Shown here piece by piece: positions 4,104 to 23,525 of a stretch of DNA of 23,525 nucleotides (position 1 is its first letter; each line of letters opens with the position of its first letter). Position numbers and translations under genes: made by a program. The stretch covers positions 1 through 23,525 of the IMG/VR virus record IMGVR_UViG_3300043567_000236. One strand, 5' to 3'. The notes below the pieces were generated by a model. That model saw nothing but the letters and a program-made list of their open reading frames with translations, was not told where the DNA came from and ran no database searches. The stretch is from a virus.

Positions 4104-4785
4104 TCCGATCACAGGCCTATTGGCAGGATCCTCTGTGCTTGGCGCCGGAATGCAGGCCAAGGCGCAGAAATCGGCATCCGCAACGGAGGCCGCCGCCGCG
4201 CAGGCAGGCATTGACGAGCAGCGCCGCCAGTTTGATCTAATTCGCGGACTGCTTCAGCCTTTCGTCGCTGGCGGCACTTCTGCTTTTGGGCAGCAATTGG
4301 ATCTGGCTGGTGTAAACGGCGCTGACGCACAGCGTGCGGCCCTGCAAGCCATTGAGCAGGGCCCAGCGTTCGCGGCGCTGGCACAGCAGGGCGAGAATGC
4401 TATCTTGCAGAATGCGTCTGCCACGGGCGGCCTGCGTGGTGGCAACGTACAGGGCGCGCTGGCCCAGTTCCGCCCGCAGATACTGTCTGGCCTGATTGAA
4501 AATCAATATACCCGCCTCGGTGGTCTGTCCTCAATTGGCCAAAACGCAGCGGTTGGCGTTGGGAATGCTGGCATGACAACAGGCGCCAATGTAAGCAATC
4601 TGCTTGGGCAACAGGGAGCGGCTCAGGCTGGCGGAACTTTGGCCACTGGCGGGACTTGGGGTAACCTCCTTGGAGACTTTAGCCAGTATCTTGGCCAGAT
4701 CCAGTCTGGCGCAATTAACAACCCATTTGGCGGTGGTTCTTCGCTCGCGCCTACAACTTCAATTCGTCCGCAGCCGAGGATCTAA
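4096..4785 (+). CDS. Ejection (DNA-transfer) protein, P22 gp7-like
   Basis: This protein has 229 residues. The ATG at 4096 was chosen because the frame upstream lies within the previous gene. The first 20 residues are hydrophobic and Gly/Ala-rich (PITGLLAGSSVLGAG), then a coiled region to about residue 45. The middle carries the block ASATGGLRGGNVQGALAQF followed by ENQYTRLGGLSSIGQNAAVG, a pattern characteristic of podophage DNA-transfer/injection proteins. The tail is Gly/Ser/Ala-rich. In P22, gp7 leaves the virion with the DNA and helps build the trans-envelope channel with gp20 and gp16. The next two genes fit those partners, giving the canonical 7-20-16 order. The call rests on motif recognition and synteny. 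Confidence 0.75.
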   Translation: MPDPITGLLAGSSVLGAGMQAKAQKSASATEAAAAQAGIDEQRRQFDLIRGLLQPFVAGGTSAFGQQLDLAGVNGADAQRAALQAIEQGPAFAALAQQGENAILQNASATGGLRGGNVQGALAQFRPQILSGLIENQYTRLGGLSSIGQNAAVGVGNAGMTTGANVSNLLGQQGAAQAGGTLATGGTWGNLLGDFSQYLGQIQSGAINNPFGGGSSLAPTTSIRPQPRI

Positions 4786-4787
4786 AG

Positions 4788-8380: not shown

Positions 8381-8435
8381 CCCTATCCAAGACCCCGCAT
8401 TTCGTGGTAAAAATCACGCGAAAGGATGCCCACCA

Positions 8436-10163
8436 ATGAGCCTGCAAATCGCGTCGCCCTTCCAGCAGTTCTTTGATCGGGATGGTTCGCCGCTCGACAA
8501 CGGCTTTGTTTACGTTGGCACGGTCAACCTAAACCCGGAAACAAACCCGCTGACGGTTTACTTTGACGACGCATTGACGATCCCGGCAGCGCAGCCGCTG
8601 CGGACTTCAAACGGCTACATCGTGCGCAACGGATCTCCGGCGCGGATCTACACCTCGCAAGAAGATTTCTCGCTGACGGTGCGGGATAAGAGCAGCGTTC
8701 TGGTGTTCACGGTGGCTGACGCGACTTCGCTTTCGAACCTCGCAACGCAGCTTGCATCTGGCTCAGGGTCGTCATTGGTTGGTTATAATCAGGGTGGCAT
8801 TGGCGCTGTTGATCGCACTGTGCAGGCTCGCTTGCGTGATTTTGTCTCGGTCAAAGACTTCGGGGCCATCCCAAACAACAGCAGTGGCGCTGCAAGGTCC
8901 GCAAATGATCTTGCCTTTGCATCGGTTCTGGCTGAGTGCGGATACCTCAACTTGGATGCAGACTATTACACTTCTGCACCAATTGACATTGGTTTTGGCC
9001 AGAAAATCTACGGCAACGGCTACACAATTTACCCGGCGCAAAACACCAGAGCCATCCGCATCCAATCGTCGCGTTGGACAATTGCGGACCTGATTATCGA
9101 CTACGGCACGCAGCAAGGAGTGTCGGACACAAATGCTGTCGGCATCTTGTTCAATAAAGGCGCCTTTGAGGGCATCATCTCCAATGTGATGGTCATGAAA
9201 TCGTATCGTGGCGTGGCGGTTGGCAATGACGTGGACGGAGCCGACCCGTTCGTTTACATGGCGCTACTGATGTCGGTTCGTGTTCTGGATGCTTATGACT
9301 GGGGCATTTCTTTGTCGAACGCTGGCAGCGTTGGAATGACCACCAACACGCTAATCAACTGCTACGTCCTTCAGTCAACAATTGGTGCAAACCCGGCATC
9401 AAAGGGAATGTTGTTTCAGTTCCACACTGGGGGGCTTTCGCTTATCAACTGCGCGGTGGACAAATGCAGTGGCCGCGCACTGCTGCTCAATGGTTGCACT
9501 GCGTTCTCTGTCAACGGCTTTTATACCGAAGCAAACGTCATCGCAGGCACGCATCTTGTTGAGGCCGCTTCTTGCACGTCGTCCTACTTGATGGGCATTA
9601 CTTCTTTCGCAAATACGTTCTCTGGAACATCGTCGGTGGTTCGTATTTCCGGCACAAGTGGTCAAATCACCGTATCTGGCAGAGAGCAAGGCAGCGTTAA
9701 CACGGGAACACTTTATGGGGTTCTGGCAGATGCTTCTGGAACTGATGTTTGGGTCGAAGCACTTGACTTCGTGACAGACAGTGGCCTCGCCAGAAGTGAC
9801 GCCCTTGTGTCTGGGGGTCGTAGGCAGATCGCATCTTATGACGGATTGCGGTTTTCTGACAAAAAGGCTGGCAAATACATCGAATACAGAAACTCCGCAC
9901 CGACAGCTGGGACATGGCAACTTGGCGACGAGACGCAGCCTGATGCGCTGGGCTTGGGGGACTCTTTCGGATTTTATTGTGCTGTTGCGGGAACACCGGG
10001 GACTTGGGTGCCGAGTGGTGGCCAGATTGGATACCGCAGCAACGCAGGCACTCCGATTGGTGTGTTGGTGCCTAAGTTCATTGGTGAGGAGGTTTTGAAC
10101 ACTAGCGGCCCAGCTTGGTTTAAGGCGACCGGGCTTACCTCCGCAGACTGGCAGGCACTGTGA
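8436..10163 (+). CDS. Tailspike with P22-like head-binding domain and beta-helix
   Basis: This protein has 575 residues. The start is at 8436 with AAAGGA upstream; an in-frame GTG at 8367 lies inside the preceding gene and is rejected. Residues 1-105 match the P22 tailspike head-binding pattern: SPFQQFFDRDGSPLDNGFVY, then NPETNPLTVYFDDALTIPAA and YIVRNGSPARIYTSQEDFSL. Residues about 127-144 (RTVQARLRDFVSVKDFGA) are the usual linker into a right-handed beta-helix. The helix has many short strand repeats to about residue 480, and a small C-terminal domain follows. Such trimers bind and often cleave surface polysaccharide. Whether it is enzymatic cannot be read here, since catalytic acids in this class are not conserved by motif. 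Confidence 0.85.
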   Translation: MSLQIASPFQQFFDRDGSPLDNGFVYVGTVNLNPETNPLTVYFDDALTIPAAQPLRTSNGYIVRNGSPARIYTSQEDFSLTVRDKSSVLVFTVADATSLSNLATQLASGSGSSLVGYNQGGIGAVDRTVQARLRDFVSVKDFGAIPNNSSGAARSANDLAFASVLAECGYLNLDADYYTSAPIDIGFGQKIYGNGYTIYPAQNTRAIRIQSSRWTIADLIIDYGTQQGVSDTNAVGILFNKGAFEGIISNVMVMKSYRGVAVGNDVDGADPFVYMALLMSVRVLDAYDWGISLSNAGSVGMTTNTLINCYVLQSTIGANPASKGMLFQFHTGGLSLINCAVDKCSGRALLLNGCTAFSVNGFYTEANVIAGTHLVEAASCTSSYLMGITSFANTFSGTSSVVRISGTSGQITVSGREQGSVNTGTLYGVLADASGTDVWVEALDFVTDSGLARSDALVSGGRRQIASYDGLRFSDKKAGKYIEYRNSAPTAGTWQLGDETQPDALGLGDSFGFYCAVAGTPGTWVPSGGQIGYRSNAGTPIGVLVPKFIGEEVLNTSGPAWFKATGLTSADWQAL

Positions 10164-11416
10164 TGATTAATCCGGCTTTTGCGCTCGAACTCACTGCGGA
10201 GAGCCTTGATCCTCGGGTTACGTTTTCTCGTGCCTTGAATACGGCAACCCGTATCAACAGTGCTGGGCTTCTCGAAAACGTCAACGCCGACACTGCTCGA
10301 TTTGACTACGACCCAATATCTTTGGCTTGCAGAGGCTTGCTGATTGAGGAGACAAGGGTCAACGGCTTTACATACTCCGAGGCGTTCAATGATGCCTCGT
10401 GGGTGGCGGGAAACTTAGTCAAGTCGGCATCTGTCGTGACAGACCCAAGAGGGAACACAAACGCTATTCGCTTCACGGCAACGGCTGGTCTTGCCGTTAA
10501 ATTTGTCGCCAAGACTTACACGGCGTCCGCTGGGACAACGCAGTCTGTTTCGTTCCTTGTTCGCGCAGGGACACACAGCTTCATACAGATATACAACAAT
10601 GGAGACGCGCAGGCTTTTTGCAACTTCGACCTAACGTCTGGAGTAGTTGGCACGGCGGGAACAAAAACGACCGGAGCAATCAAGGCCTTAAAAAATGGCT
10701 GGTATATTTGCACGGCAACTTTTGGCACGACAACCACATATGGAACGGGCTGGCGTGTTTATTTTGCGCCATCGGCTTCGGCTACTTATGGGCAATCCCT
10801 AAACGCTGTTGGAACGGAAAGCGTTGACTTCTTTTTTGGTCAGATTGAAGCTGGCGCATTCCCCACCAGCCTTATCACAACAACCACGACAGCCATGACC
10901 CGCAACGCTGACATCGCCACGATCACAGGGGCGAACTTCAGCGATTGGTGGCAGGCTGGCAAAGGCTCTGCGCTGGTTCGCGCCCGCCCGTCTGTTGTTT
11001 CCGGCACGCGCCCGCTGATCCAGTTTGACGACACCACGGGTGGCAACATCATTGCCCTGCGTGGGAACGCGACAAACCCAGAACTTTACGTCAGGACCGG
11101 AGGTTCGGATCAGGTTCAGATCGACGCAGGCACCATCGCGGCCAATACCAGCTATCGCTTGGCTGGATCTTGGGCCGAGAATAGCTGCGCTGCCAGCATA
11201 AACAGCGGCACGCCTGTCCTCGATGGCGTGGCGACAATCCCAGTTGTCACGCAGAGCCGTCTCGGAAGCGACGGCACCAACTACCTCAATGGCCACCTTG
11301 AGGCGGTTGAGTATTACGATGAGCGCGTCCTGGATGCCTCTCTGCAAGTGGTGTCTAGCACTGCTGGATATAGATCAATCATCGGCCCGGTTTTCCGGGA
11401 CGCCATCATTTCGTAA
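10163..11416 (+). CDS. Second receptor-binding/fibre protein with lectin-like domains
   Basis: This protein has 417 residues from the ATG at 10163, which overlaps the tailspike stop (TGATG); a GTG at 10160 would add one residue. The N-terminal block contains ARFDYDPISLACRGLLIEET, a signature frequent in phage fibre/spike proteins. Residues about 75-240 look like a carbohydrate-binding jelly roll (NDASWVAGNLVKSASVVTD, then QSVSFLVRAGTHSFIQIY). Residues about 250-405 look like a LamG/concanavalin-A-type domain ending YLNGHLEAVEYYDERVLD. It probably forms a second adsorption element or a branch that docks on the tailspike. No catalytic residues are evident. Direct overlap with the tailspike suggests equal production. 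Confidence 0.7.
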   Translation: MINPAFALELTAESLDPRVTFSRALNTATRINSAGLLENVNADTARFDYDPISLACRGLLIEETRVNGFTYSEAFNDASWVAGNLVKSASVVTDPRGNTNAIRFTATAGLAVKFVAKTYTASAGTTQSVSFLVRAGTHSFIQIYNNGDAQAFCNFDLTSGVVGTAGTKTTGAIKALKNGWYICTATFGTTTTYGTGWRVYFAPSASATYGQSLNAVGTESVDFFFGQIEAGAFPTSLITTTTTAMTRNADIATITGANFSDWWQAGKGSALVRARPSVVSGTRPLIQFDDTTGGNIIALRGNATNPELYVRTGGSDQVQIDAGTIAANTSYRLAGSWAENSCAASINSGTPVLDGVATIPVVTQSRLGSDGTNYLNGHLEAVEYYDERVLDASLQVVSSTAGYRSIIGPVFRDAIIS

Positions 11417-12829: not shown

Positions 12830-13044
12830 TCTGGCAGGCGCTGGTTGGCGCCGTCTCGAAGCTGTTTCTTTTTGTCGCCATGCTGGCAGCAAGCTGGTTT
12901 GGCGGCAAAAAGACAGCCCAGGCTGACGCCAAAGTTGAGGGGCTTGAAGACTATGTTGAGACACGCCAACGCATGGACGAGGTGGGCCGCATGTCTGACG
13001 CTGACGCTGCCCGCGGCTGGCTGCGTGAGCGTGGCAAGCGGTGA
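12826..13044 (+). CDS. i-spanin (Rz-like) inner-membrane subunit
   Basis: This protein has 72 residues. It starts with one membrane helix (LVGAVSKLFLFVAMLAASWF), followed by a charged periplasmic coiled coil (ADAKVEGLEDYVETRQRMDE). It ends in AARGWLRERGKR, a C-terminal pattern common in Rz-like proteins of alphaproteobacterial phages. Topology and size fit an i-spanin, which pairs with an outer-membrane lipoprotein to fuse the envelope at the end of lysis. That partner begins inside this gene in another frame (12953). Translation is coupled to the holin by ATGA. Confidence 0.75.
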   Translation: MIWQALVGAVSKLFLFVAMLAASWFGGKKTAQADAKVEGLEDYVETRQRMDEVGRMSDADAARGWLRERGKR

Positions 13045-14867: not shown

Positions 14868-15034
14868 TCGTATCTGTCCTTGATCTTGCTTATGGTGTCT
14901 AAGTTTTGCTGGAGCATGTAAAGTATAAGATCGAGTTGCTCCTGCGTGGCCCAAAGTCCACCCGGCACGCGGACAAAGCCAGCGGCGCGGATCGCCTGCG
15001 CTTGTGGAGATGTGTCGTGCCGGGTGCGTGTCAT
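14846..15034 (-). CDS. Small hypothetical phage protein
   Basis: This protein has 62 residues. The segment AAGFVRVPGGLWATQEQLDL followed by ILYMLQQNLDTISKIKDRYE is similar to small accessory proteins I have seen in alphaproteobacterial phages, where a GF-x-R-V-P-G-LW-x-TQEQLD pattern recurs. It is amphipathic and probably helical in the second half. Its ATG overlaps the previous stop (ATGA at 15034-15031). No function can be assigned. Confidence 0.6.
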   Translation of the reverse strand: MTRTRHDTSPQAQAIRAAGFVRVPGGLWATQEQLDLILYMLQQNLDTISKIKDRYEWHRRDD

Positions 15035-15189
15035 CCCTTCTCTACCTCAATCTCGGCCAGCGTGGTGCGGGCCATATCTCTTGCATACGTGTCCTCACCC
15101 CAAACACAGATTGCATTAAGACCCCTGACGGCCTTCGCCAGCTTGGCTTCAAGGTCTTCGATGATTCCTTCAAAATCTTCGTCAGTCAT
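15031..15189 (-). CDS. Small coiled-coil protein of the repeat family
   Basis: This protein has 52 residues. It begins MTDEDFEGIIEDLEAKLAKA and ends TLAEIEVEKG. Its final and central segments are nearly the same at the DNA level as parts of the two genes upstream (15186-15449 and 15442-15987), so it is a shortened relative of them. Predicted helical. The ATG overlaps the stop of the upstream gene by ATGA. AGAGAAGGGATG gives a usable ribosome site. Confidence 0.6.
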   Translation of the reverse strand: MTDEDFEGIIEDLEAKLAKAVRGLNAICVWGEDTYARDMARTTLAEIEVEKG

Positions 15190-15928
15190 CCCTTCTCTCC
15201 CTCAATCTCGGCCAGCGCGATGCGGGCAATAAGGCTGTCATCAGCTTCCCACGGCATTGCCTCAACAGCGTAATACTGCAGCGCCTTCACCGCCTTATTC
15301 AGTTTGTCCACGGCAGACACCCACTCTTCTTCAAAAAATTCAAGCTCGACGGTCAGGGCTTCGATGCGGTCGGCGGCTTCGTCCAGCGTCTTGATGCTCA
15401 TGCTGTCGCCGTCCATGCCGCGCAGCCGCTTCACCAGTTCTTCAGTCATGTCTTTCCCCCTCAATCTCGGCCAGTGCCGCTTTGACCTTGCGCATCACGC
15501 CACGCCAGCTTGCCTGCCTGTTCTTCTCGGCATCGAGACCGAAGAAGATGCTGGCCTCATGCTGTGCCACGGCCCTCAGCGCCTCCACCGCCTTCGCCAG
15601 CTTGGCTTCTGCTGCCTCGGCGCGGCTACGGTGCTTTTCGATATTGGCCTCAATCACCAAGCGCAGCGTATCCCGCTCCCGCTTCAACTCAGCAACGGTG
15701 TTGTCCATCACGGCCTGCGCCATTCGGCAGTTTTTGAGGTCACGCTCCAGCCCCTCCGCATAAGCCTCGGCCTCCTTGGCGTCAGCACGGGCGGCTTCGA
15801 GTTGCTCGGTCAGGGCTTCAATGCGGTCCTCATGCAGCTTCCGCTCGGCTTCCATTGCGTTTGAATAGCCTCGTTGCTCGGCAAGAGTTAACTCGGCGGT
15901 CAGGGCTTCAATGCGGTCGGCGGCTTCG
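15128..15928. repeat. Internal coding repeats: DRIEALT and KLAKAV blocks
   Basis: A sequence of 21 to 31 bp encoding ADRIEALT occurs at 15351-15381, 15808-15828 and 15898-15928. A second 23-bp block encoding EAKLAKAV occurs at 15128-15150 and 15587-15609. All lie in the three adjacent coiled-coil genes, in a different order in each, which shows mosaic shuffling. Confidence 0.75.
15186..15449 (-). CDS. Coiled-coil protein of the repeat family
   Basis: This protein has 87 residues from ATG 15449, chosen because GAGGGGG lies upstream; an earlier in-frame codon at 15464 would overlap the upstream gene more. It contains DEAADRIEALTVELEFFEEE and ends ALAEIEGEKG. The first motif recurs in the 181-residue protein upstream and the last in all three neighbours. 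Predicted helical and acidic. Such AADRIEALTAEL proteins are common in phage accessory operons; no function is known to me. Confidence 0.65.
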   Translation of the reverse strand: MTEELVKRLRGMDGDSMSIKTLDEAADRIEALTVELEFFEEEWVSAVDKLNKAVKALQYYAVEAMPWEADDSLIARIALAEIEGEKG

Positions 15929-15987
15929 CAATGCCAAAAATCTGTGTCGTCCTCCCGCAGCCGCGCGATCACTTCTTCGTTAGTCAT
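15442..15987 (-). CDS. Long coiled-coil accessory protein (Ead/Ea22-like in style)
   Basis: This protein has 181 residues. It is almost wholly coiled coil: CEAADRIEALTAELTLAEQR, a second DRIEALTEQLEAARADAKEA, then a long Glu/Arg/Ala helix and a final globular-looking part AVAQHEASIFFGLDAEKNRQ ending LAEIEGERHD. Two internal copies of the DRIEALT block show duplication within the gene. It overlaps the upstream gene by 8 nt and the downstream gene by 8 nt. The architecture resembles Ead/Ea22-type early phage proteins of unknown role; that is a likeness in style, not proven homology. Confidence 0.65.
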   Translation of the reverse strand: MTNEEVIARLREDDTDFWHCEAADRIEALTAELTLAEQRGYSNAMEAERKLHEDRIEALTEQLEAARADAKEAEAYAEGLERDLKNCRMAQAVMDNTVAELKRERDTLRLVIEANIEKHRSRAEAAEAKLAKAVEALRAVAQHEASIFFGLDAEKNRQASWRGVMRKVKAALAEIEGERHD

Positions 15988-16204
15988 AGTCCTTCACTCC
16001 ATGCTTCTCGATGTCCTTGAGCATCAGCATCAGCGCCTTCTGCACGTCCTCGACGCTCTCCCCGGTCACTTGCACAGGCTCGTCGGTCCATGCAGGCCCA
16101 TCGTCCATCTCGTAGAGTTCGTGGATGGCGTAGTAGTATTCTCCGTCCACATCGTTCGGTCGTGCCAGCTTGTGCCGCATCAGTTGGTAGTGCCAGTGGC
16201 TCAT
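15980..16204 (-). CDS. Small conserved phage protein (HYQLMRH type)
   Basis: This protein has 74 residues from ATG 16204, which overlaps the upstream stop (ATGA). It reads MSHWHYQLMRHK, then YYYAIHELYEMDDGPAWTDE and VQVTGESVEDVQKALMLML. I recognise this as a recurrent small phage protein with an N-terminal HYQ-hydrophobic-RH strand, an AIHE-x-Y strand and a C-terminal ESVEDV helix. It probably adopts a compact alpha/beta fold. No function is established. Confidence 0.65.
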   Translation of the reverse strand: MSHWHYQLMRHKLARPNDVDGEYYYAIHELYEMDDGPAWTDEPVQVTGESVEDVQKALMLMLKDIEKHGVKDYD

Positions 16205-16611
16205 TTCGGCCTCCGCTGCTTGCTGTCTTTCCAATCACACGTCCCGATCTGCACGATGCCGGGGAAGTCGTCTATGCGGCGGTATTTTGACATCATCGGC
16301 CATTTCTCATCTCGACTTTTTGGCTCAAAATCGTAGCCAAAGACGCCTCCATCAGAATCCCGCGCCACCCACTCAACCCAATCAGGCAGCTTCTCCCACG
16401 CGATCACGTCTTGGGTCTTGGGCAGGGGGACGGTGCGGTAGATGTAATGATGCACCCAAAAGTAGAGATTTGTTGCGGGCTCAAAAACCGAGCGGGAGGC
16501 AGCGCAATACTCAATAACCCCACCCACTTTCTCATGCTCATGCAGCGCAGCCTTTTCCTCTTCGGTCAGCAGGCCATACGGCACTCGGTTGTTGGTCATG
16601 TCGAGGGACAT
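16201..16611 (-). CDS. Hypothetical phage protein, Trp-rich
   Basis: This protein has 136 residues from ATG 16611, supported by GGAGG seven bases upstream; an ATG at 16599 gives ATGA overlap but lacks a ribosome site. The N-terminus is helical (GLLTEEEKAALHEHEKVGG). The rest is rich in Trp, Tyr and Arg (NLYFWVHHYIYRTVPLPKT, then WEKLPDWVEWVARDSDGGVF). Such proteins occur in phage accessory operons as single copies. No catalytic motif is visible. Confidence 0.6.
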   Translation of the reverse strand: MSLDMTNNRVPYGLLTEEEKAALHEHEKVGGVIEYCAASRSVFEPATNLYFWVHHYIYRTVPLPKTQDVIAWEKLPDWVEWVARDSDGGVFGYDFEPKSRDEKWPMMSKYRRIDDFPGIVQIGTCDWKDSKQRRPK

Positions 16612-16823
16612 TTGCGGGCCTCCAGCATGGCGTCGGCGATTTCATAAGCCCAGCCGCTAATCTCTTTGTCGCTGCCTCGAACTTCAAGCCAGCGATCTAG
16701 GGCACCCGCCAGCGCCTGACCCGCGAACCAGTCGCGCAGGGTCATGCCAGTGGCGTTGAAATATGCCGAGTTTGGCTCAAGCTGCGGAAACGCAGGCCCG
16801 CCGTTGTCTTTTGTGTTACTCAT
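16596..16823 (-). CDS. Small conserved phage protein (NGGPAFP type)
   Basis: This protein has 75 residues. It carries NGGPAFPQLEP near the start, then GMTLRDWFAGQALAGALDRW and WAYEIADAMLEARKC. This is a very frequent phage accessory protein: an extended Pro/Gly start followed by two helices, the second with YxIADAML. I know of no established function. The ATG overlaps the preceding 24-residue ORF (ATGA). Its length is normal for the type. Confidence 0.7.
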   Translation of the reverse strand: MSNTKDNGGPAFPQLEPNSAYFNATGMTLRDWFAGQALAGALDRWLEVRGSDKEISGWAYEIADAMLEARKCPST

Positions 16824-16894
16824 TTCCCCCTCCTCGCCGGGCAGTCCCGGCCTTGGTTGCAGTCGTGCGTGCAGGGTGGGCAGGTCTTGCTCAT
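16820..16894 (-). CDS. Cys-rich 24-residue micropeptide
   Basis: The peptide has 24 residues with five cysteines: MSKTCPPCTHDCNQGRDCP followed by ARRGK. The CNQGRxCPAR core recurs in tiny phage proteins from many hosts, which supports it as a real gene. ATGA overlaps join it to both the upstream and downstream genes, so it keeps the operon's translational chain unbroken. The C-x2-C-x3-C-x5-C pattern suggests zinc binding; unproven. Confidence 0.6.
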   Translation of the reverse strand: MSKTCPPCTHDCNQGRDCPARRGK

Positions 16895-17079
16895 GGCTCC
16901 ATCTCCTTCGTCACTGGCAGCGTCTCGCACTGCATTTTGTGGTCGTAGTCGAGGGTGTCGCCAACGGCTACCATAGACGCCTTGCAGGCCTCGGGCGTCA
17001 TGTAGGGAATGCCGAAGGTGTCGCCATCCAGATGGCCGCTGTGTATTGTAATCCACAGTATCGTCATCGTTGCGGTCAT
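16891..17079 (-). CDS. Small hypothetical phage protein
   Basis: This protein has 62 residues with an AGGGAAAG ribosome site. It starts with a hydrophobic strand (MTATMTILWITIHSG), continues GDTFGIPYMTPEACKASMVA and ends near CETLPVTKEMEP. The EACKASM-x8-DYDHKMQCE layout, with two cysteines that could pair, resembles short phage proteins with an exported or strand-swapped N-terminus. The hydrophobic start is short for a signal peptide. Function unknown. Confidence 0.6.
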   Translation of the reverse strand: MTATMTILWITIHSGHLDGDTFGIPYMTPEACKASMVAVGDTLDYDHKMQCETLPVTKEMEP

Positions 17080-17091
17080 TTTCTCTTTCCC

Positions 17092-17358
17092 TCAGTGCTG
17101 GGTTTCTGGTTTGGTGTCGTACATGTCTGCCGTCATCCGCAGACCAAGCGATATTGTTTTCCGGCTCAAACCTTTCGATATGCCGTAGGAATAAATCATG
17201 GCGATCAGATTCGGGATGACATCGGCCTCGCTGTCGCAATAGGCGCATAGCATCGTCAGCGTCAGGGCGCACAACTCGGCCTCGTCCAGTTCGTCTGGCA
17301 GCGAATCCATTATTGCCTCAAGGCGCGCATCTGTCATGTTGGTGGTCAACTCGGTCAT
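17092..17358 (-). CDS. Small acidic helical protein
   Basis: This protein has 88 residues from ATG 17358, which overlaps the upstream stop (ATGA); an earlier in-frame codon at 17397 has no support. The N-terminus is acidic and helical (MTDARLEAIMDSLPDELDEA) and a hydrophobic helical part follows (CALTLTMLCAYC, then VIPNLIAMIYSYGISKG). Not recognised as a named family. The fold looks like a compact helical bundle. Confidence 0.55.
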   Translation of the reverse strand: MTELTTNMTDARLEAIMDSLPDELDEAELCALTLTMLCAYCDSEADVIPNLIAMIYSYGISKGLSRKTISLGLRMTADMYDTKPETQH

Positions 17359-17759
17359 GCCGGAACCTCCAGCAGATCCGACATGCCCAGCGCCCACAGT
17401 TCCGTGTGCGGCAGCTTCATGGCGCGCAGTTCGTCTTCCACATCCCGCACGTCCGCATCCAGCATCTTGGCCAGTTCGTAAGAGGTGGCAGGCCCGTTGG
17501 CCAGTTCCTGGCGAACACGCTCTCGCAGGGTCGTCCCGGTCGTCGGCTCATGGCCTTCGATCGAGATCACCACCCAGGGCGTCTTTTCGCCGTGCGTCAC
17601 GTTTGGCACGATCTGGGCCAGGATCTTCTGGCCGGGGCGCAGGCCGGCGTTTATCGCGTGCTTTGACGGGATGAACACGTTCTGCGTCATGTCCTCGGAC
17701 AGCACACCAAAGGCCGTGCCAGTGGCCAGCACGTTGGTGACGAGCAATTCAGTTTCCAT
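17355..17759 (-). CDS. Cold-shock-like OB plus winged-helix fusion protein
   Basis: This protein has 134 residues. Residues 1-70 look like an OB/cold-shock domain: GTAFGVLSEDMTQNVFIPSK, then GLRPGQKILAQIV and PWVVISIEG, matching the GFGF...DVFxH...GxxV layout in weakened form. Residues about 75-116 look like a winged helix (TLRERVRQELANGPATSYEL, then ADVRDVEDELRAM). The pair suggests a nucleic-acid-binding regulator, perhaps on RNA through the OB part. GGAG lies eight bases before the ATG. It overlaps the upstream gene by 11 nt. Fold assignment is by pattern only. Confidence 0.6.
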   Translation of the reverse strand: METELLVTNVLATGTAFGVLSEDMTQNVFIPSKHAINAGLRPGQKILAQIVPNVTHGEKTPWVVISIEGHEPTTGTTLRERVRQELANGPATSYELAKMLDADVRDVEDELRAMKLPHTELWALGMSDLLEVPA

Positions 17760-17931
17760 TGTTTTTCTCCATTTCTGCTAATTGTTGCTCAGCATCGCGC
17801 AGGTAGAAGCACAGGATACCTATGTCCTCTCCTATAGCGGCGGATCTGACCCCGGTTCCGTAGAGCCGTTCAAGATCGGCGATCTGTTCTTTTTTGCGGG
17901 CGATGTAGGCGCGGCATTCTTCGATGGTCAT
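17749..17931 (-). CDS. Small coiled-coil protein
   Basis: This protein has 60 residues from ATG 17931, which forms TGATG with the upstream stop; a GTG one codon earlier is possible. The sequence MTIEECRAYIARKKEQIADL is followed by a short break and a second helix, LCFYLRDAEQQLAEMEKN. It should be a helical hairpin. Function unknown. Its end overlaps the OB/winged-helix gene, giving tight coupling. Confidence 0.55.
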   Translation of the reverse strand: MTIEECRAYIARKKEQIADLERLYGTGVRSAAIGEDIGILCFYLRDAEQQLAEMEKNNGN

Positions 17932-18122
17932 CACATGATCCCCAATCTGTCCAAGGCGAAGTATGATTTCTTGTAGCTTTCGATGATGCGGTCAACGCTG
18001 TCGATCTTGTCTTTAAGTTCTGGCGTGGGCCTAGTGTCGTTGTAAATCGTCAGCGTCTCGCGGTAATCCCACAGCGCGGTCAGCACGATGTGGGTGTCCA
18101 TTGCTCCAAGTTTGACAGCCAT
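17931..18122 (-). CDS. Small hypothetical protein
   Basis: This protein has 63 residues from ATG 18122. An upstream in-frame start at 18161 was rejected because it would overlap the 32-residue membrane peptide and because GGTGG lies just before 18122. The text MDTHIVLTALWDYRETLTIY followed by KIDSVDRIIESYKKSYFALD gives two helices. It resembles small helical proteins of phage early operons. Function unknown. Confidence 0.55.
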   Translation of the reverse strand: MAVKLGAMDTHIVLTALWDYRETLTIYNDTRPTPELKDKIDSVDRIIESYKKSYFALDRLGIM

Positions 18123-18123
18123 T

Positions 18124-18222
18124 TTACCACCCCATCCCATGCCCGATGAGCAGCAGGCCATAGCCCACGGCGAAGATTGCGATGACGCCGATCAGGTCGG
18201 CCAAGATGTCACGGATACGCAT
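18124..18222 (-). CDS. Single-TM membrane micropeptide, 32 residues
   Basis: The peptide has 32 residues: MRIRDILADLIGVIAIFAVG then YGLLLIGHGMGW. It has a positively charged start and one hydrophobic helix. It begins three bases after the upstream stop and ends one base before the next ATG, and AAAGGGAAA precedes it. Similar very short membrane peptides with an LLLIGxGxG ending are common in phage accessory operons. The tight fit in the operon is the best evidence that it is real. Confidence 0.6.
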   Translation of the reverse strand: MRIRDILADLIGVIAIFAVGYGLLLIGHGMGW

Positions 18223-18225
18223 GGC

Positions 18226-18420
18226 TTATTTCCCTTTGTTTGCATTAATTGCGGCGATCAAGCGCAGGCGCAGTTCAGCGCGGCGCAACAGAAACATGAT
18301 CTCGCCAGTGTCGTGGTAGTTCGGGTGGTCGTCGGTGTAGTTGCGCTCAATGTCGCGGTCGATGCACTCCAGAGCCGCCTCGGCCTGCTCTAGCGTGATG
18401 AGGATGGTTGGGTCTGACAT
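18226..18420 (-). CDS. Small helical phage protein
   Basis: This protein has 64 residues from ATG 18420, chosen by AGGAG eight bases upstream; an earlier in-frame codon lies before it without a ribosome site. The text LITLEQAEAALECIDRDIER, then DTGEIMFLLRRAELRLRLIA, makes two helices with a loop containing NYTDDHPNYHD. Function unknown. Confidence 0.6.
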   Translation of the reverse strand: MSDPTILITLEQAEAALECIDRDIERNYTDDHPNYHDTGEIMFLLRRAELRLRLIAAINANKGK

Positions 18421-18434
18421 GTTGGTTTCTCCTA

Positions 18435-18608
18435 TCAAAACGGCGATTCTTCGCCGGGGTAAGTTGGTTTCCACTGGGGCGGCGCGTAGGCCGCCGGCTG
18501 GGGGCGGGGTGCTGGCCGGGCAATGACGCCCAGCAAGTCTAGTTCATCGTCGCGTTGCTTGTGATAAAGCCAATCTCCGTAGTCTTCTTCGTAGCGGTAG
18601 CGGGTCAT
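18435..18608 (-). CDS. Small hypothetical protein with Pro-rich tail
   Basis: This protein has 57 residues from ATG 18608. The N-terminus is acidic and aromatic (MTRYRYEEDYGDWLYHKQRD) and the second half is Pro-rich (RPAPRPQPAAYAPPQWKP) ending GEESPF. Probably unstructured at the C-terminus and able to bind a partner. The ribosome site is weak. Not recognised. Confidence 0.5.
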   Translation of the reverse strand: MTRYRYEEDYGDWLYHKQRDDELDLLGVIARPAPRPQPAAYAPPQWKPTYPGEESPF

Positions 18609-18642
18609 ATGAATGTCACGGTCAGGTTTCGGGGCGCGTTGA

Positions 18643-18780
18643 TTAGATATTGCGAGGAAGGATGAACACATCCTTCGCGTAGCGCGACTTGTGAAAGGGC
18701 ATGGCGTTATTTTTGATCCAATCAAAATTCACGCTATCAGTGATCCAAAACTCTCCGTGGTAGAGGCTGTAAGCAGTCAT
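18643..18780 (-). CDS. First gene of the leftward operon, small hypothetical protein
   Basis: This protein has 45 residues from ATG 18780, supported by AAGGAG eight bases upstream. The longer frame to 18924 crosses the control region and is rejected. It reads MTAYSLYHGEFWITDSVNFD, then MPFHKSRYAKDVFILPRN. Not recognised. Its place just after the predicted leftward promoter makes it the leading gene of the operon. Confidence 0.55.
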   Translation of the reverse strand: MTAYSLYHGEFWITDSVNFDWIKNNAMPFHKSRYAKDVFILPRNI

Positions 18781-18849
18781 TTCGTCGTCTCCTTGTTTGC
18801 TAGTTCGTAGGACCACCATACAGCCTGCCACACCGCGTGCAAGCAAAAA

Positions 18850-18878
18850 ATTACACTTGACGCATCTTTTTTTAACAA
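18850..18878 (-). promoter_or_regulatory. Predicted leftward promoter
   Basis: Reading the minus strand, TTGTTA at 18878-18873 and TGTAAT at 18855-18850 form -35 and -10 boxes with an exact 17-bp spacer. The -10 differs from TATAAT at one position. It would start the leftward accessory operon with a leader of about 60 nt before ATG 18780. Confidence 0.5.
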
Positions 18879-18885
18879 ATAGACA
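18857..18885 (+). promoter_or_regulatory. Predicted rightward promoter
   Basis: TTGACG at 18857-18862 is a near-perfect -35 box. The -10 candidate TAGACA at 18880-18885 keeps the 17-bp spacer but is weak. It overlaps the leftward promoter almost fully. It would drive the HTH gene at 18913 and the replication genes beyond it. Confidence 0.45.
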
Positions 18886-18912
18886 GGCCAAACCGAAACA
18901 CAGGAGGACGCC

Positions 18913-19113
18913 GTGCAGGCTCAAGACCTAATCAGACAGTGGGCAGCGGACGGCGGGCGCAAGCTCGGCTGGATCGCTGACCAAGTTCCCGTCGCCAAAT
19001 CCAGCATGTCACGCTGGATGCAGAACAACATCGTGCCTGGCGCGATCTACCGCAATCGGCTGGCCGATATCACCGGGATCGACGGCCTGCGTGAGAAGGA
19101 TTGCTGGAAATGA
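18913..19113 (+). CDS. Cro/CI-like small helix-turn-helix regulator
   Basis: This protein has 66 residues with a GTG start and an AGGAGG site at 18902-18907. Residues about 17-38 make a helix-turn-helix (LGWIADQVPVAKSSMSRWMQ) followed by a helix (IYRNRLADITGIDGLREKD). The pattern is that of small Cro- or XRE-type DNA-binding proteins. It is the first gene of the rightward operon and sits beside the double promoter, so it probably binds there; a target is inferred, not seen. Its stop overlaps the next ATG (ATGA). Confidence 0.65.
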   Translation: MQAQDLIRQWAADGGRKLGWIADQVPVAKSSMSRWMQNNIVPGAIYRNRLADITGIDGLREKDCWK

Positions 19114-19376
19114 ACCGTTCCGAGATCCTCGACACCGCCAAGGCATATATCACGGTTGACCGCGCCAACACGCACGGCAGCGCCGAGGCCAACTTCGGCC
19201 TGATCGCGGCTTACTGGTCGGCCCACCTGAACACGAACATCAAGCCGCACGACGTGGCCGTGATGATGACCCTGTTGAAGCTGGCCCGCGCCAAGTCGAA
19301 CCCCATGCACGCTGACAACGCCATCGACGCGGCAGGCTATTCTGCGCTGGCTGGCGAGATCGGATCGGGCGAGTGA
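19110..19376 (+). CDS. DUF6378-like phage protein
   Basis: This protein has 88 residues. It contains DTAKAYITVDRANTHGSAEA, then NFGLIAAYWSAHLNT, DVAVMMTLLKLARAK and DAAGYSALAGE. These match what I know as DUF6378, a small helical family common beside replication and nucleotide-metabolism genes of phages. Its pattern of Asp/His in helices recalls MazG-like folds, but that link is only a guess. ATGA overlap upstream, TGATG downstream. Confidence 0.7.
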   Translation: MNRSEILDTAKAYITVDRANTHGSAEANFGLIAAYWSAHLNTNIKPHDVAVMMTLLKLARAKSNPMHADNAIDAAGYSALAGEIGSGE

Positions 19377-19582
19377 TGAAGCTGCAAGAACTCAAAGCAA
19401 TCATCGACGGCTTGGTTGATGTCCACGGCGGCGAGATGGACACCAAGTTCAAATACCGCTTCGGATCGGGCCGCACGGCGCAAGGTGCTGTGACATCGTA
19501 TCAGGTCGGCCCGCCAATGCAGGGCGACAGGCGAGGGTTCGTCCGCTTTGACATCGACCACGCGCGCGGGGAGCCTGAGTGA
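19376..19582 (+). CDS. Small hypothetical phage protein
   Basis: This protein has 68 residues from ATG 19376, a TGATG overlap; a GTG one codon earlier is possible. The N-terminus is helical (MKLQELKAIIDGLVDVHGGE) and strands follow (TKFKYRFGSGRTAQGAVTSY). It is not recognised. It is coupled to both neighbours within the replication operon. Confidence 0.55.
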   Translation: MKLQELKAIIDGLVDVHGGEMDTKFKYRFGSGRTAQGAVTSYQVGPPMQGDRRGFVRFDIDHARGEPE

Positions 19583-20019
19583 TGGCCATCTACATCGGCA
19601 TCGACCCCGGCAAGACGGGTGCCATCGCTGTCATGGACGCTGACGACATGAGCGTGCGCGTTTTCGACATGCCCGGCACCATTGAGGAAAAGCGCGCCGT
19701 CCTGTCCGAGATCGGTAGCGTGCGCTGCGCTTGGATCGAAAAGCCGTTCTTCCCGCGCATGATCGGCATCAAGAATGCCGTGACCATCGCGCAGGCCTAC
19801 GGCGAGATGAAGGCCTGCCTGTTCTACGCGGGCGTGCCGACGAATGAAGTGCCTCCGGCGGCGTGGAAGAAGCACTTCGGCCTGTCCACCGACAAGGACG
19901 CATCCAGGGCATACGCATCAAGCGTCTTCCCGGATCAGTCCAACCTGTGGGCGCGCAAGAAAGACGACGGCAGGGCCGAGGCGGCTCTGATCGCATACTA
20001 CGGATGGAGGAAGAAATGA
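19582..20019 (+). CDS. RuvC-like Holliday-junction resolvase
   Basis: This protein has 145 residues from ATG 19582. It has the RNase H fold of RuvC: GIDPGKTGAIAVMD with Asp8, WIEKPFFPRM with Glu53, and KKDDGRAEAALIAYYG with Asp128/Asp129 and Glu133 as remaining metal ligands. Length fits phage-type resolvases. It would cut four-way junctions or branched DNA before packaging and after recombination, as a dimer. It lies upstream of the RecE-like nuclease and SSB, giving a complete recombination set. Coupled by TGATG upstream and ATGA downstream. Confidence 0.82.
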   Translation: MAIYIGIDPGKTGAIAVMDADDMSVRVFDMPGTIEEKRAVLSEIGSVRCAWIEKPFFPRMIGIKNAVTIAQAYGEMKACLFYAGVPTNEVPPAAWKKHFGLSTDKDASRAYASSVFPDQSNLWARKKDDGRAEAALIAYYGWRKK

Positions 20020-20828
20020 GAACCGACCTGGACAACAAATCGTATCACGCCCACCCCGCGATCTCGTCATCCGACGTGAAAGCGGTTTACAAAACGTCTC
20101 TGGCCCATTGGAAGGGCAAGGCGCGCAAGCCCAGCAGCGCCTTCGCTATGGGGTCAGCCGTTCACGCGCTTGTGCTGGAACCGGAAAAAAAGATGGTCCG
20201 GCGTGGCCCGGAAGATCGTCGCGGTGACAAATGGAAGAAGGCGCAGCTTGAGGCCGATCTCGATGGCGTCATCCTGCTGCCCGAGGGCGACTTCGATCTG
20301 GCCGCCCGCATCGCAGATGCCGTCAAGGCTCACCCGGTCGCGGCCATGTATCTGGCCGACCCGACCTTTGTGGCCGAGGCCAGCTTCTTCGGTATCGATC
20401 CGGCAACCGGCACCGAGATCAAGTGCAGGCCCGACGGATATCTGCCCGAGGTCGGCCTTGTGTTCGACGTGAAGACTACCACAGACGCCAGCCCCGACGG
20501 CTTCCCGCGTGAACTGCGTAAATACGCATACGACGTGCAGGCCGCCTTCTACCTGCGCGCCCTGCGTGCCGCTGGCTACAAGGCCGACACGTTCATGTTC
20601 ATCGCGGTCGAAAAGGAGGCGCCCTTTGCTGTCGGCGTCCACGCCCTGACCGACCGCTATCTGGACCACGCCGACATGATCGTGACCCAGACCCTCCAAA
20701 AGATCAGCAACGCCATCGCCGTTTCAGACTTCCCAACTGGATGGGATCTGATTAACCATATCGATCTGCCACGCTGGCAGACCGAGACCACCGAAGATGA
20801 CATCTTCACCGAAACTGTAGACTTCTGA
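20016..20828 (+). CDS. RecE-type PD-(D/E)XK exonuclease
   Basis: This protein has 270 residues from ATG 20016; an in-frame start at 19863 lies inside the resolvase gene. The nuclease core is visible: GSAVHALVLEPE (His50), Glu121, the segment GTEIKCRPDGYLPEVGLVF with Asp140, then FDVKTTTDA with Asp151 and Lys153, and the helix VQAAFYLRAL (Q-x3-Y, 175-179). This order is that of exodeoxyribonuclease VIII/RecE-like PDDEXK proteins (PF12684 from memory). It probably resects double-stranded ends 5' to 3' for annealing. The adjacent SSB-type gene serves as partner. It carries no separate RecT-like annealase. Confidence 0.8.
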   Translation: MRTDLDNKSYHAHPAISSSDVKAVYKTSLAHWKGKARKPSSAFAMGSAVHALVLEPEKKMVRRGPEDRRGDKWKKAQLEADLDGVILLPEGDFDLAARIADAVKAHPVAAMYLADPTFVAEASFFGIDPATGTEIKCRPDGYLPEVGLVFDVKTTTDASPDGFPRELRKYAYDVQAAFYLRALRAAGYKADTFMFIAVEKEAPFAVGVHALTDRYLDHADMIVTQTLQKISNAIAVSDFPTGWDLINHIDLPRWQTETTEDDIFTETVDF

Positions 20829-20853
20829 GACCAACGCCAAGAGGAGCAAACCA

Positions 20854-21507
20854 ATGGCTAACAACGATGACTTCCACAAGGTTCTCGTCAAGAACGTGAC
20901 CCTTCAGTATCCGAAATTGAGCGGCACCTTCCGCTTCAACACCCAAAAGCAGGCCAGCGAACCCTGCGCGCCTACCGCATCCAACGCGGCTTGGAGCGTG
21001 GCCTTTGACATGCCCAAGGAGCAGGCCAAGCCGCTCTACGAAGAACTGCGCGCCCACTACGAGGCCTGCCGTTCGCGCAACAGCAAGATGCCACAGTTCT
21101 CCAAGGTCTTCGGCATGAAGAAGCTGAAGGACGAACACGGCAACGAGACGGGGATCGTGCAGTTCGCAGCCAAGCGCAACGGCATGAAGAAAGACGGCAC
21201 GCCCAACAAGGCGCCCACCGTCATCGACGGGCAGAAGCAGCCGCTGGCCGATCTGGCCTTCTGGGGCGGCTCCAAAGGCACTGTGCGCGCATGGGCGGTG
21301 GCCGTCATTGATCCCGATGGCAACGGCGGCATCAGCCTCCTGCTGGACGCGGTGCAGGTCACCGAAGCCCGCTACGGCGACGGCGGCATGGACGATTTCG
21401 ACACCGTGGAAAGCAAGGCCGATCCGTTCGAGCAAACCAAAGCGCCCTTGACCGAGCAGAAGCGCGAGAGCATCAAGGAAGAACTCGGGGACGATATCCC
21501 CTGGTGA
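20854..21507 (+). CDS. Single-strand DNA-binding protein, DUF2815/gp2.5-like
   Basis: This protein has 217 residues with GAGGAG at 20841-20846. The OB-type core contains VTLQYPKLSGTFRF, AAWSVAFDMPKEQAKPLYEE, a DGQKQPLADLAFWGGS segment and LLLDAVQVTEARYGDGG. From residue 178 the chain becomes acidic (GMDDFDTVESKADPFEQ) and ends ELGDDIPW, an acidic aromatic tail typical of SSBs that recruits partners. It resembles the DUF2815 group of T7 gp2.5-like proteins. It lies between the RecE-like nuclease and the primase-helicase, so it could serve both replication and recombination. Confidence 0.75.
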   Translation: MANNDDFHKVLVKNVTLQYPKLSGTFRFNTQKQASEPCAPTASNAAWSVAFDMPKEQAKPLYEELRAHYEACRSRNSKMPQFSKVFGMKKLKDEHGNETGIVQFAAKRNGMKKDGTPNKAPTVIDGQKQPLADLAFWGGSKGTVRAWAVAVIDPDGNGGISLLLDAVQVTEARYGDGGMDDFDTVESKADPFEQTKAPLTEQKRESIKEELGDDIPW

Positions 21508-21515
21508 TATAAAAA

Positions 21516-21548
21516 GAACCCCGGCGTGAGACCAACGCGCCGGGGTTC
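21516..21548 (-). terminator. Strong hairpin, intrinsic terminator on the minus strand
   Basis: An 11-bp perfect stem (GAACCCCGGCG at 21516-21526 with CGCCGGGGTTC at 21538-21548) encloses an 11-nt loop. Read leftward it is followed by TTTTTATAT, a textbook intrinsic terminator. Read rightward it is followed by AGTTAAGG without a T-run, so it should not stop the replication transcript. No minus-strand gene is visible to its right within the window. Confidence 0.65.
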
Positions 21549-21561
21549 AGTTAAGGCAGGC

Positions 21562-21585
21562 GGAACCGAGGGAGGAGCAGGTTCC
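21562..21585 (+). promoter_or_regulatory. Small hairpin presenting a Shine-Dalgarno sequence
   Basis: GGAACC (21562-21567) pairs with GGTTCC (21580-21585) around a 12-nt loop that contains GGAGGAG. The loop precedes the ATG of the first micro-ORF by about ten bases. A stem-loop with the ribosome site in the loop is the shape of several translational operators. Its regulatory role is inferred. Confidence 0.3.
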
Positions 21586-21587
21586 AG

Positions 21588-21623
21588 ATGTGTGAGAGCA
21601 ACCCAACACAAGGAATATCTTAA
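21588..21623 (+). CDS. Candidate leader micro-ORF 1
   Basis: The 11-residue frame reads MCESNPTQGIS. It follows GGAGGAG at 21571-21577. Its stop TAA overlaps the start of the next micro-ORF (TAATG at 21621-21625). It is too short to judge by coding statistics; the ribosome site and the overlap are the only support. Confidence 0.25.
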   Translation: MCESNPTQGIS

Positions 21624-21670
21624 TGCAGTCTATATCTGGTGGCAAGTGTCGCGGTGGCCACAATGTCTGA
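21623..21670 (+). CDS. Candidate leader micro-ORF 2
   Basis: The 15-residue frame reads MQSISGGKCRGGHNV. It has AAGGA eight bases before its ATG. It ends eight bases inside the primase-helicase gene, so ribosomes finishing it would sit at that start, which itself has only a weak GGTGG site. A coupling leader is plausible but unproven. Confidence 0.3.
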   Translation: MQSISGGKCRGGHNV

Positions 21671-23525
21671 CATCCGCTTTTTGACAGCCCCCGGCTCTTT
21701 CCACACGCTCATCAACAAACCCGGCGATACATACCCCGGCATCTCTTGGGCCGAGATCGCCCGCATGGTCTCCACACCGCAGGCGAAAGAAAAGATCGAC
21801 GCCGATTTTTTCATCCCATCGACCTACCGCGAATACGACGGCAGATCCCACGAAGCCCAGCGCGAGCGCGGCGCCTTCCGCATGCTGGCCCTCGACATCG
21901 ACCGGGGCAACCCCAGCCTCGATGACGTGCTGGCCGCCGTGGAGGCCGTCTGCGGCCCCGTCAGCCTGCTGGCCTACTCATCATCCGGCGCGACCCCAGA
22001 GAACCGCAAGTGGCGCGTCCTGCTGCCGCTGGCCGGCGCTCTGTCAGGCGCTGACTATGAGCTTGCCCAGACCGCCCTGTTCGATCTGCTGCACGCCAAT
22101 GGCATACACCCCGACGGCGCCCTGGCACGCTGCGGCCAGCCCATTTACCTGCCCAACGTGCCGCTGGCCAAACGCAACCCCGATCTGACCCCGATCTTCT
22201 ACCAACACCGCATCATCCGGGCTGGCACGCTGCGTCTGGATGCCGACAGCGCCATACGTCAAGAAATTGACAGGAGGCTGGAACAGTACCGCCTCGCCGC
22301 CGAGCAGGCCGACCGGGCGCGTGCCGACCGTGAGCGCCAGCGTGCCGAGCGCCGGCAGAAGTTTCCCGATCAGGTCAGCCCGGTTGATGCCTTTAACGCC
22401 GACCACAGCATCGAGGATCTGCTCGCCCGCTACCAATATGAGCGGCGCGGATCTTCCCAGCATTATCGTTCTCGGTATCAAACGTCCCCCAGCTTCGCCA
22501 CGCAGAACTTCTTATCGCATTGGGTAAGCCTGTCAGGATCGGATGCCGCCGCTGGTGTGGGCAGGCCTAAGTCACTTGGTGAGAGTTCATACTGCTGGGG
22601 CGATGCATGGGACCTTTTTGTGCATTATGAGCATCAGGGCGATTTCGACAAAGCCGTGCGCGCCTATGGCTTGGAGATCAGCCCGGCCAAAGCCGAGATC
22701 GAACTGCCCGAGAACGGCATGGATGATTTCGACTATGTAGCCCCGCAGGCCGCGCAGGAGGCACCTGCCAGCGCAGAGGCCGATGACATAGACCTCGACA
22801 GCTTCGACACCCCAGACGCCCCCGAGGCGGCCCCGGATTGGCCCACGCTCTACGATATGTTCGACGAGGCCAGCATCGAGCCGCGCCGCTGGATCTATGC
22901 CCACCATTACCTGCGATCCTTCGTCAGCGTGCTGGCGTCGGCAGGCGGGATCGGCAAGACCAGCCTCCAGATCGTGGAGGCGCTGGCCATCGTGACAGGC
23001 CGCCCGCTGCTGGGCGAGGAAGTGAAAGAGCGAACCAACGTCTGGATCGTCAACCTTGAAGATCCGCTTGAAGAAATCCAGCGCCGCGTTCTCGCCGCAA
23101 TGCGGCATTACGGCATCAAGCCCGCCGAGGTGGAGGGCCGCCTGTTCGTCAACGCGGGCCGAGACTTCAGCCTCAAGTTCGGCATCCAGACCCGCGAGGG
23201 CGTGCTGCCCAATACCAAGCTGGTCGAATACCTCTGTGCCAAAATCCCTGAAAAGCAGATTGGCTGCGTCTTCATCGATCCCTTCGTCGGCGCCCACAAC
23301 ATCAACGAGAACGACAACATGGCTGTGAACGCCATTGTGGCGGAAATAAGGCGCGTGGCTGACGAGACAAAGTGCGCCATCGGGCTGGTCCATCACATCC
23401 GCAAAGGCAACGGCGAGGATGCGTCAATCGACAGCGTGCGTGGCGCAGGCTCACTGATCGGTGCCGCCAGGGCTGCGCGCGTGGTCAACCGCCTGTCACC
23501 AGATGATGCCAGCAAGTTTGGCATA
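21663..23525 (+). CDS. Primase-helicase (AEP-like primase plus RepA/AAA_25-type ATPase), 3' partial
   Basis: An unbroken frame of 621 codons runs off the window. Residues 70-170 look like an archaeo-eukaryotic-type primase: LALDIDRGN with the DxD pair Asp78/Asp80, then LLAYSSSGATPENRKWRVLL and ARCGQPIYLPN. Residues about 200-235 form a charged coiled coil. Residues 250-340 (YERRGSSQHYRSRYQTSPSF, then SLSGSDAAAG and YCWGDAWDLFVHYEHQGDFD) are a connecting domain. An acidic linker 350-390 follows. The ATPase has Walker A ASAGGIGKTS (Lys432), Walker B CVFIDP (Asp539) and LVHHIRKG. It should prime and unwind phage DNA. The C-terminus is missing only because the window ends. Confidence 0.85.
   Translation, partial: MSDIRFLTAPGSFHTLINKPGDTYPGISWAEIARMVSTPQAKEKIDADFFIPSTYREYDGRSHEAQRERGAFRMLALDIDRGNPSLDDVLAAVEAVCGPVSLLAYSSSGATPENRKWRVLLPLAGALSGADYELAQTALFDLLHANGIHPDGALARCGQPIYLPNVPLAKRNPDLTPIFYQHRIIRAGTLRLDADSAIRQEIDRRLEQYRLAAEQADRARADRERQRAERRQKFPDQVSPVDAFNADHSIEDLLARYQYERRGSSQHYRSRYQTSPSFATQNFLSHWVSLSGSDAAAGVGRPKSLGESSYCWGDAWDLFVHYEHQGDFDKAVRAYGLEISPAKAEIELPENGMDDFDYVAPQAAQEAPASAEADDIDLDSFDTPDAPEAAPDWPTLYDMFDEASIEPRRWIYAHHYLRSFVSVLASAGGIGKTSLQIVEALAIVTGRPLLGEEVKERTNVWIVNLEDPLEEIQRRVLAAMRHYGIKPAEVEGRLFVNAGRDFSLKFGIQTREGVLPNTKLVEYLCAKIPEKQIGCVFIDPFVGAHNINENDNMAVNAIVAEIRRVADETKCAIGLVHHIRKGNGEDASIDSVRGAGSLIGAARAARVVNRLSPDDASKFGI

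Follow-up and report, generated by a model that had tools for sequence, protein, structure and literature searches.

Plasmids provide the classic cases of replication genes under antisense control. In plasmid R1, the antisense RNA CopA is described as lying opposite the leader of the replication gene, where a short leader ORF, tap, is also found, and as limiting the replication protein (PMC5883639, whose reference list names Blomberg et al. in the R1 context). Among phages, sar of P22 is described as a small antisense RNA that is located at the junction of two co-transcribed genes and blocks the ribosome site of the second gene (PMC7968456; PMC12197685). In the same two sources, the targets of sar and OOP are regulators of lysogeny and that of PreS is dnaN of the host, reached in trans; antisense RNAs of phage PAK_P4 are listed as well, most of them without known function (PMC12197685; PMC7968456). 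The types of gene overlap given as enriched in PMC12548453 are those of -1, -4 and -8 nt, of which the -8-nt type is NTGNNTGA. Searches of the open-access literature found nothing joining bacteriophage antisense RNA, primase and leader peptide, and nothing relevant, by title and abstract start, on antisense transcripts of phage replication genes; the main text of the paper on CRP-822-type phages contains 0 words starting with "RNA" (PMC12629253).

The locus described here is the junction between the SSB and primase-helicase genes of IMGVR_UViG_3300043567_000236, a 23.5-kb virus record that was analysed as a whole and is referred to below as the window. Tail, DNA-ejection and lysis-like genes are found in its left part and nuclease, SSB and primase-helicase genes in its right part. 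An inverted repeat of 14 nt (93%, 19 nt separating the arms) is also found at 12867-12913, in probable coding sequence that follows an endolysin-like gene. Based on comparison of related sequences, we propose that the SSB-primase junction probably consists of a cis-encoded antisense sRNA gene of about 50-105 nt and a coupled leader, in which the RNA would block ribosome loading on the leader and, in the window's clade, coupling would pass this block on to primase.

Table 1. Coordinates of genes, leader elements and predicted antisense elements in the window
Feature	Position	Strand	Details
SSB (gp2.5-like) gene	20854..21507	+	phrog_112, E 1.5e-13; acidic tail ends DDIPW
A-tract on plus strand, U-tail of minus-strand terminator	21508..21515	-	6 T in tail
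Predicted antisense RNA	21508..21610	-	about 100 nt, three hairpins; fold -39.0 kcal/mol; ends inferred, not mapped
Hairpin 1, terminator stem of predicted antisense RNA	21516..21548	-	11 bp; U-tract side, covariation
Hairpin 2 (small hairpin)	21562..21585		6 bp; leader ribosome site in loop (plus), anti-SD complement on minus
Leader Shine-Dalgarno (SD)	21570..21577	+	-11.6 kcal/mol for ORF1
Micro-ORF 1	21588..21623	+	MCESNPTQGIS, 11 codons; joins micro-ORF 2 by TAATG overlap
-10 of predicted antisense promoter	21617..21622	-	TAAGAT, 17 nt after -35; promoter scan, conserved spacing
Micro-ORF 2	21623..21670	+	MQSISGGKCRGGHNV, 15 codons; stop overlaps primase start by 8 nt
-35 of predicted antisense promoter	21640..21645	-	TTGCCA; promoter scan, conserved spacing
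Primase-helicase gene	21663..23525, continues past window end	+	AAA_25 E 2e-36; PHROG primase/helicase families

The leader and its probable coupling to the primase gene

The first-pass annotation of this DNA had described an 11-bp hairpin, a small hairpin with a ribosome site in its loop and two back-to-back micro-ORFs running into the primase gene, and all the leader elements that it named are found at the junction. The SSB stop codon occupies 21505-21507 and the primase ATG lies at 21663, within the end of micro-ORF 2, where the 8-nt overlap reads ATGTCTGA. As the SD duplex energies are -11.6, -5.2 and -4.4 kcal/mol for ORF1, ORF2 and primase, respectively, the primase ribosome site is the weakest of the three, which bears out its earlier description as weak. 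The plus-strand fold of 21505-21680 has a z of -2.55, with 3/200 shuffles equally good; hairpin 2 is absent from the minimum-energy fold of the 176-nt plus strand and present in the 103-nt folds of either strand.

Relatives were fetched by SSB and by primase, and the locus lists comprised the best 80 of 103, 113, 161, 171, 135 and 256 relatives; the primase of CRP-406 as query gave 2 loci. A first extraction from best-80 lists yielded 142 loci in which both genes are present, with 69 different leaders, and a wider one yielded 107 distinct haplotypes, 82 of which have at least 64% primase identity. At this identity the leaders include the long type of about 155 nt, to which the window belongs; the short type of about 117-121 nt with a single 17-codon micro-ORF; the L24x type of about 121 nt, also with 17 codons and with a different peptide; and single variants, including L148 with 13 codons and L241, on a Rhodobacteraceae MAG contig, with 47 codons. 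At L241:4750-5060, where the +8 overlap is the same, a long inverted repeat whose ends are CACCCAAC/GTTGGGTG lies before the ORF, and no SSB match is found there.

In all 82 haplotypes with at least 64% primase identity from the best-80 lists, which are related and do not count as independent events, a frame from upstream ends precisely at 8 nt within the primase gene; elsewhere in these genes, stops in this frame have a background of 755/26806 codon pairs (2.8%). The resulting start-stop overlap of -8 nt is of a kind expected for termination-reinitiation coupling. The stop at +8 is preserved across codons for Ser (TCT in 76 rows, AGT in five) and Ala (GCT in one), and through a change from TGA to TAA in two rows. 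The micro-ORF peptides, on the other hand, differ completely among the 82 haplotypes, ranging from MQIIQANRAYYKDIKHV to MFIHYSTTFHNILCCHV, and in L234 the frame has no in-frame ATG and apparently begins with GTG. TAATG is retained in 22/22 distinct long leaders, where the ORF reaching it is 11 codons long in 14 leaders and 5 codons long in 8. The median SD of the micro-ORF is stronger than that of primase in all four leader groups compared: -5.2 versus -4.4 in the long group, -9.1 versus -4.9 in the short group, -8.0 versus +1.9 in the L24x group and -6.1 versus -4.9 in L148. A primase SD is absent in all six L24x-type haplotypes whose SD energies were computed. A fixed stop, a changing peptide and a stronger micro-ORF SD form the pattern that is expected from coupling and not from a functional peptide, which is unlikely, as the sequence varies while position and stop persist. 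Against coupling, the primase SD of the uncoupled distant relatives has a median of -5.3, which is hardly better than that of the coupled short type (-4.9). The first-pass annotation had suggested that primase output may depend on translation of the leader and had named conservation of the leader as a check; the leader is conserved, and the comparison supports such a dependence well.

The 25 rows below 64% identity contain none with a micro-ORF of the window type. A frame ending at +8 is found only in L244, where it is longer and without ATG, and eight of the 25 rows have a frame ending at +4, which in L310, L311, L313 and L340 seems to be the end of another gene. In L312 and L319, a 4-codon ORF just before the primase start ends at primase +4 (ATGA overlap) and is perhaps an independent start-stop leader in otherwise uncoupled relatives.

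For the further suggestion that the SSB or another protein represses primase by binding the small hairpin, the comparison gave no evidence: the stem sequence varies, and the hairpin is not evident by eye in five relatives (L290, L249, L274, L336 and L292). Hairpin 2 was judged partly by eye because the search for it gave hairpin 1 for many rows. An antisense RNA from the minus strand, which the first-pass annotation had not considered, appears from the comparison to be a better candidate for the repressor.

Hairpin 1 and the predicted minus-strand promoter

Hairpin 1 has 11 perfect pairs; as plus-strand RNA it has 13, one of them G-U, around a loop of 7 nt. It is found in the relatives either directly after the SSB stop or after an insert there. 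Such inserts, of about 480-500 nt, lie between the SSB stop and hairpin 1 in several lineages, and the antisense unit beyond them is intact. The insert at L122:2960-3400 encodes an HNH endonuclease (HNH_3, E 1.9e-15); L034, L124 and L274 have gaps of 600-646 nt, and their insert is judged from the gap and similar text.

At least five of the eight nucleotides before hairpin 1 are A on the plus strand, i.e., form a U-tract on the minus strand, in 58 of the relatives' 64 rows, or in 57 of 60 when L310, L313, L318 and L340, whose hairpins are other ones (of an insert or another gene), are excluded. A plus-strand intrinsic terminator after the SSB gene was rejected, as a U-tract following hairpin 1 (at least five T of eight) is found in just 1/64 rows and a plus-strand terminator in 1/20 loci of a later, mostly marine set. 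With the A-tract before it and no T-tract after it, hairpin 1 has the shape of a minus-strand terminator; that its U-tract is on the minus strand is a refinement absent from the first-pass annotation. The marine set comprised 74 loci, of which 53 were redundant and one with short upstream sequence was excluded; among the 20 kept, L410 and L450 are on contigs already represented as L295 and L300, and the other 18 are on new contigs. A minus-strand terminator is present in 19 of the 20 (17 of the 18 on contigs not met before). The stem itself covaries: two-sided changes are found at 12 of the 13 pairs (23 relatives), and 90.3% of its cells are paired, a count lowered by alignment A6, which places the L24x stems one column off, compared with at most 56.9% when the stem is slid. 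A plain tool scan, which accepts loops of up to 8, omitted hairpin 1, whose loop on the minus strand measures 11.

A predicted sigma70-like promoter on the minus strand overlaps the micro-ORF. Among the 62 haplotypes that are distinct in 75+12 nt, the best minus-strand site has a 17-nt spacer in 58, all of the form TTGnnn/TAnnnn, while the spacer sequence changes. In shuffles, P <= 0.05 is reached on the minus strand in 46/62 haplotypes and on the plus strand in 6/62, in a scan that, like the unit scans below, was designed after the locus had been seen. The 16 haplotypes that miss this level include all seven of the L24x type, in which spacing is the one feature that suggests an antisense promoter. 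The -10 shifts relative to the micro-ORF (-41, -35 or -38) and the spacing stays constant; the site lies before the micro-ORF ATG in long leaders, at codons 3-4 in short ones and at codons 2-3 in the L24x type. When codon 3 was compared among 26 micro-ORFs of the short type, its first base was the least variable (0.62 bits, versus 1.85 for the second and 1.55 for the third), which is predicted by TATnnT and not by coding. Of the 19 marine loci with the minus-strand terminator, 17 have a spacer of 17 and 16 a score of at least 7. In the relatives with less than 64% identity, including the marine set, the antisense promoter is located around or within the primase start, so that the RNA would extend over the ribosome site of primase itself. 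The micro-ORF thus looks like a later addition, which would relay the block. The marine -35 is situated in primase codons, and part of its conservation may therefore be coding. The promoter weights used in the scans were assumed values, and a plain tool scan of 15000-23525 gave 3 promoter-like sites compared with 2.8 expected.

When both strands were scanned for a promoter followed by a terminator (RNA of 50-130 nt), one unit was found in the window, at the SSB-primase junction. The cultured Roseobacter phages CRP-831, CRP-406, CRP-811 and CRP-821, of which CRP-831, CRP-811 and CRP-821 are close relatives and not independent, have one or two units each, and the unit at this junction has the top score in all four; CRP-831 gave 1 unit when the stem was required to have 6 G-C pairs and 2 when this was later set at 5. 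Shuffled genomes gave 0 or 1 unit each (15 shuffles per genome).

Alternative explanations

The junction could hold a coupling leader only, with hairpin 1 stopping stray antisense transcription from primase and the promoter-like site arising incidentally from the ribosome site together with the AT-rich beginning of the micro-ORF. This would agree with the weak promoter scores of the L24x type and with the short leaders, where the -35 TTG is complementary to CAAGG, a sequence that may be retained as the primase SD. In CRP-811, a single small opposite-strand gene is present at 1-264, about 4.3 kb beyond primase, read-through from which would head towards the junction. The genes next downstream of primase in CRP-831, CRP-406 and CRP-821, however, run co-directional, so that no convergent gene there requires an antisense terminator. 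The 17-nt spacing persists despite changing spacers and shifting position, and in five genomes a hairpin with such a tail adjoins a promoter at this one junction. We consider a leader without an antisense gene unlikely.

Less probable still is that the minus-strand RNA is made and acts mainly in trans, its anti-SD loops pairing with other phage or host mRNAs. Cuckoo/CcsR sRNAs carry a CUCCUCC-type loop motif, and loops of this type are found here, those of hairpin 1 in the L24x type being UCCUCCC on the minus strand. Full-length minus-strand matches to ar14 (21.3 versus a gathering score of 58.8 bits), mmgR (19.4 versus 41) and anti-hemB (21.6 versus 49.5) point in the same direction, but all are below threshold, and Rfam gave no match at gathering score for the window or five loci. 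Like a plus-strand match to ylbH (E 0.013), they are taken as resemblance. The anti-SD of hairpin 2 follows simply from the SD on the plus strand, and the loop complement has no second target above chance in the window (2 matches, 2.64 expected).

The position between the SSB and primase genes would also suit a replication origin, with the minus-strand RNA as primer for DNA synthesis and with hairpins that function in single-stranded DNA, and lambda OOP is mentioned as once considered a primer (PMC12197685). An origin would not require a strong terminator and a covarying leader with a ribosome site, and in four genomes the cumulative GC skew does not turn at the junction, a test weakened by their nearly one-sided gene order; we regard this possibility as very improbable. 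Nor do we give more credit to hairpin 1 as a plus-strand mRNA feature (a processing site, a protector of the SSB mRNA 3' end or an operator for the SSB or another protein), which is favoured by a strong covarying stem right behind the SSB stop and, in some relatives, by G-U pairs valid in plus RNA only, since A-C pairs, valid on the minus strand only, occur in equally many (by eye, the two kinds of change point to neither strand) and the A-tract in 58/64 rows and the paired promoter are left unexplained.

Proposed mechanism and comparison with known systems

Under the preferred reading of an antisense gene combined with a coupled leader, ribosomes would bind to the strong site in hairpin 2 and read through the micro-ORFs. 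Having terminated 8 nt within the primase gene, they would reinitiate at its ATG. From the conserved signals we infer that the promoter overlapping the micro-ORFs drives a short minus-strand RNA across the leader ribosome site, ending at hairpin 1. By pairing with the leader, this RNA would prevent translation of the micro-ORF and hence, given the coupling, of primase. As phage genomes multiply, antisense RNA would increase and primase would decrease, so that the RNA could act as a sensor of copy number.

Related aquatic phages seem to share this putative antisense replication brake. In the window, 3028-11416 contains matches to a DNA-ejection protein and a tail-spike-like protein, and the CRP relatives (L383-L386) carry tape-measure and tail-tube genes. 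The SSB-antisense-primase block, which is common to both despite their different virion genes, may be movable between virion types. It is possible, and here we are more tentative, that aquatic phages of different virion types carry a plasmid-style copy-number brake in which a dosage-sensing antisense RNA limits the primase-helicase, and that the window's clade rebuilt this brake through the addition of a coupled micro-ORF, in which the antisense promoter is also located; the RNA would then not have to extend as far as the start of primase. If true, the presence of such a conserved unit in cultured Roseobacter phages would allow direct tests of whether phage replication is under dosage control, and it would explain why micro-ORFs with a meaningless peptide precede primase. 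More generally, the hairpin that stands out most between two genes can be part of the opposite strand.

Among known RNAs, the alphaproteobacterial ar14 consensus resembles the predicted RNA in its CUCCUCC loops and terminator hairpin. Unlike cuckoo/CcsR and ar14 RNAs, which are trans-acting (context for the CcsR sRNAs is given in PMC10253847), the motif here is the complement of the local SD, and its score is below gathering. The leader is similar to termination-reinitiation and bicistronic-design leaders in its strong first ribosome site, short first cistron and stop-start overlap, and differs from them in being natural, in its unconserved peptide and in the predicted antisense promoter that overlaps it.

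The locus is most readily compared with R1 and P22. Like CopA/tap/repA of R1, it has a leader ORF whose stop overlaps the downstream start, here in 82/82 haplotypes. Conserved promoter and terminator signals lie to either side of the leader ribosome site, from which an antisense RNA gene comparable to that of CopA is predicted. Unlike in R1, no Rfam family matches at gathering score and repression would be a prediction, the downstream gene is a phage primase-helicase rather than a plasmid replication initiator, and this leader ORF is lacking in more distant phages that carry the antisense unit. Similar to sar of P22, the predicted RNA is short and would lie over a ribosome site in an intergenic junction, with position and signals that fit, and in the distant relatives it would lie over the ribosome site of primase itself, in the way that sar covers that of ant. 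The genes concerned, however, are different: sar is found between arc and ant, an antirepressor of lysogeny, whereas the RNA proposed here would act between SSB and primase-helicase genes and, in the window's clade, via a coupled micro-ORF.
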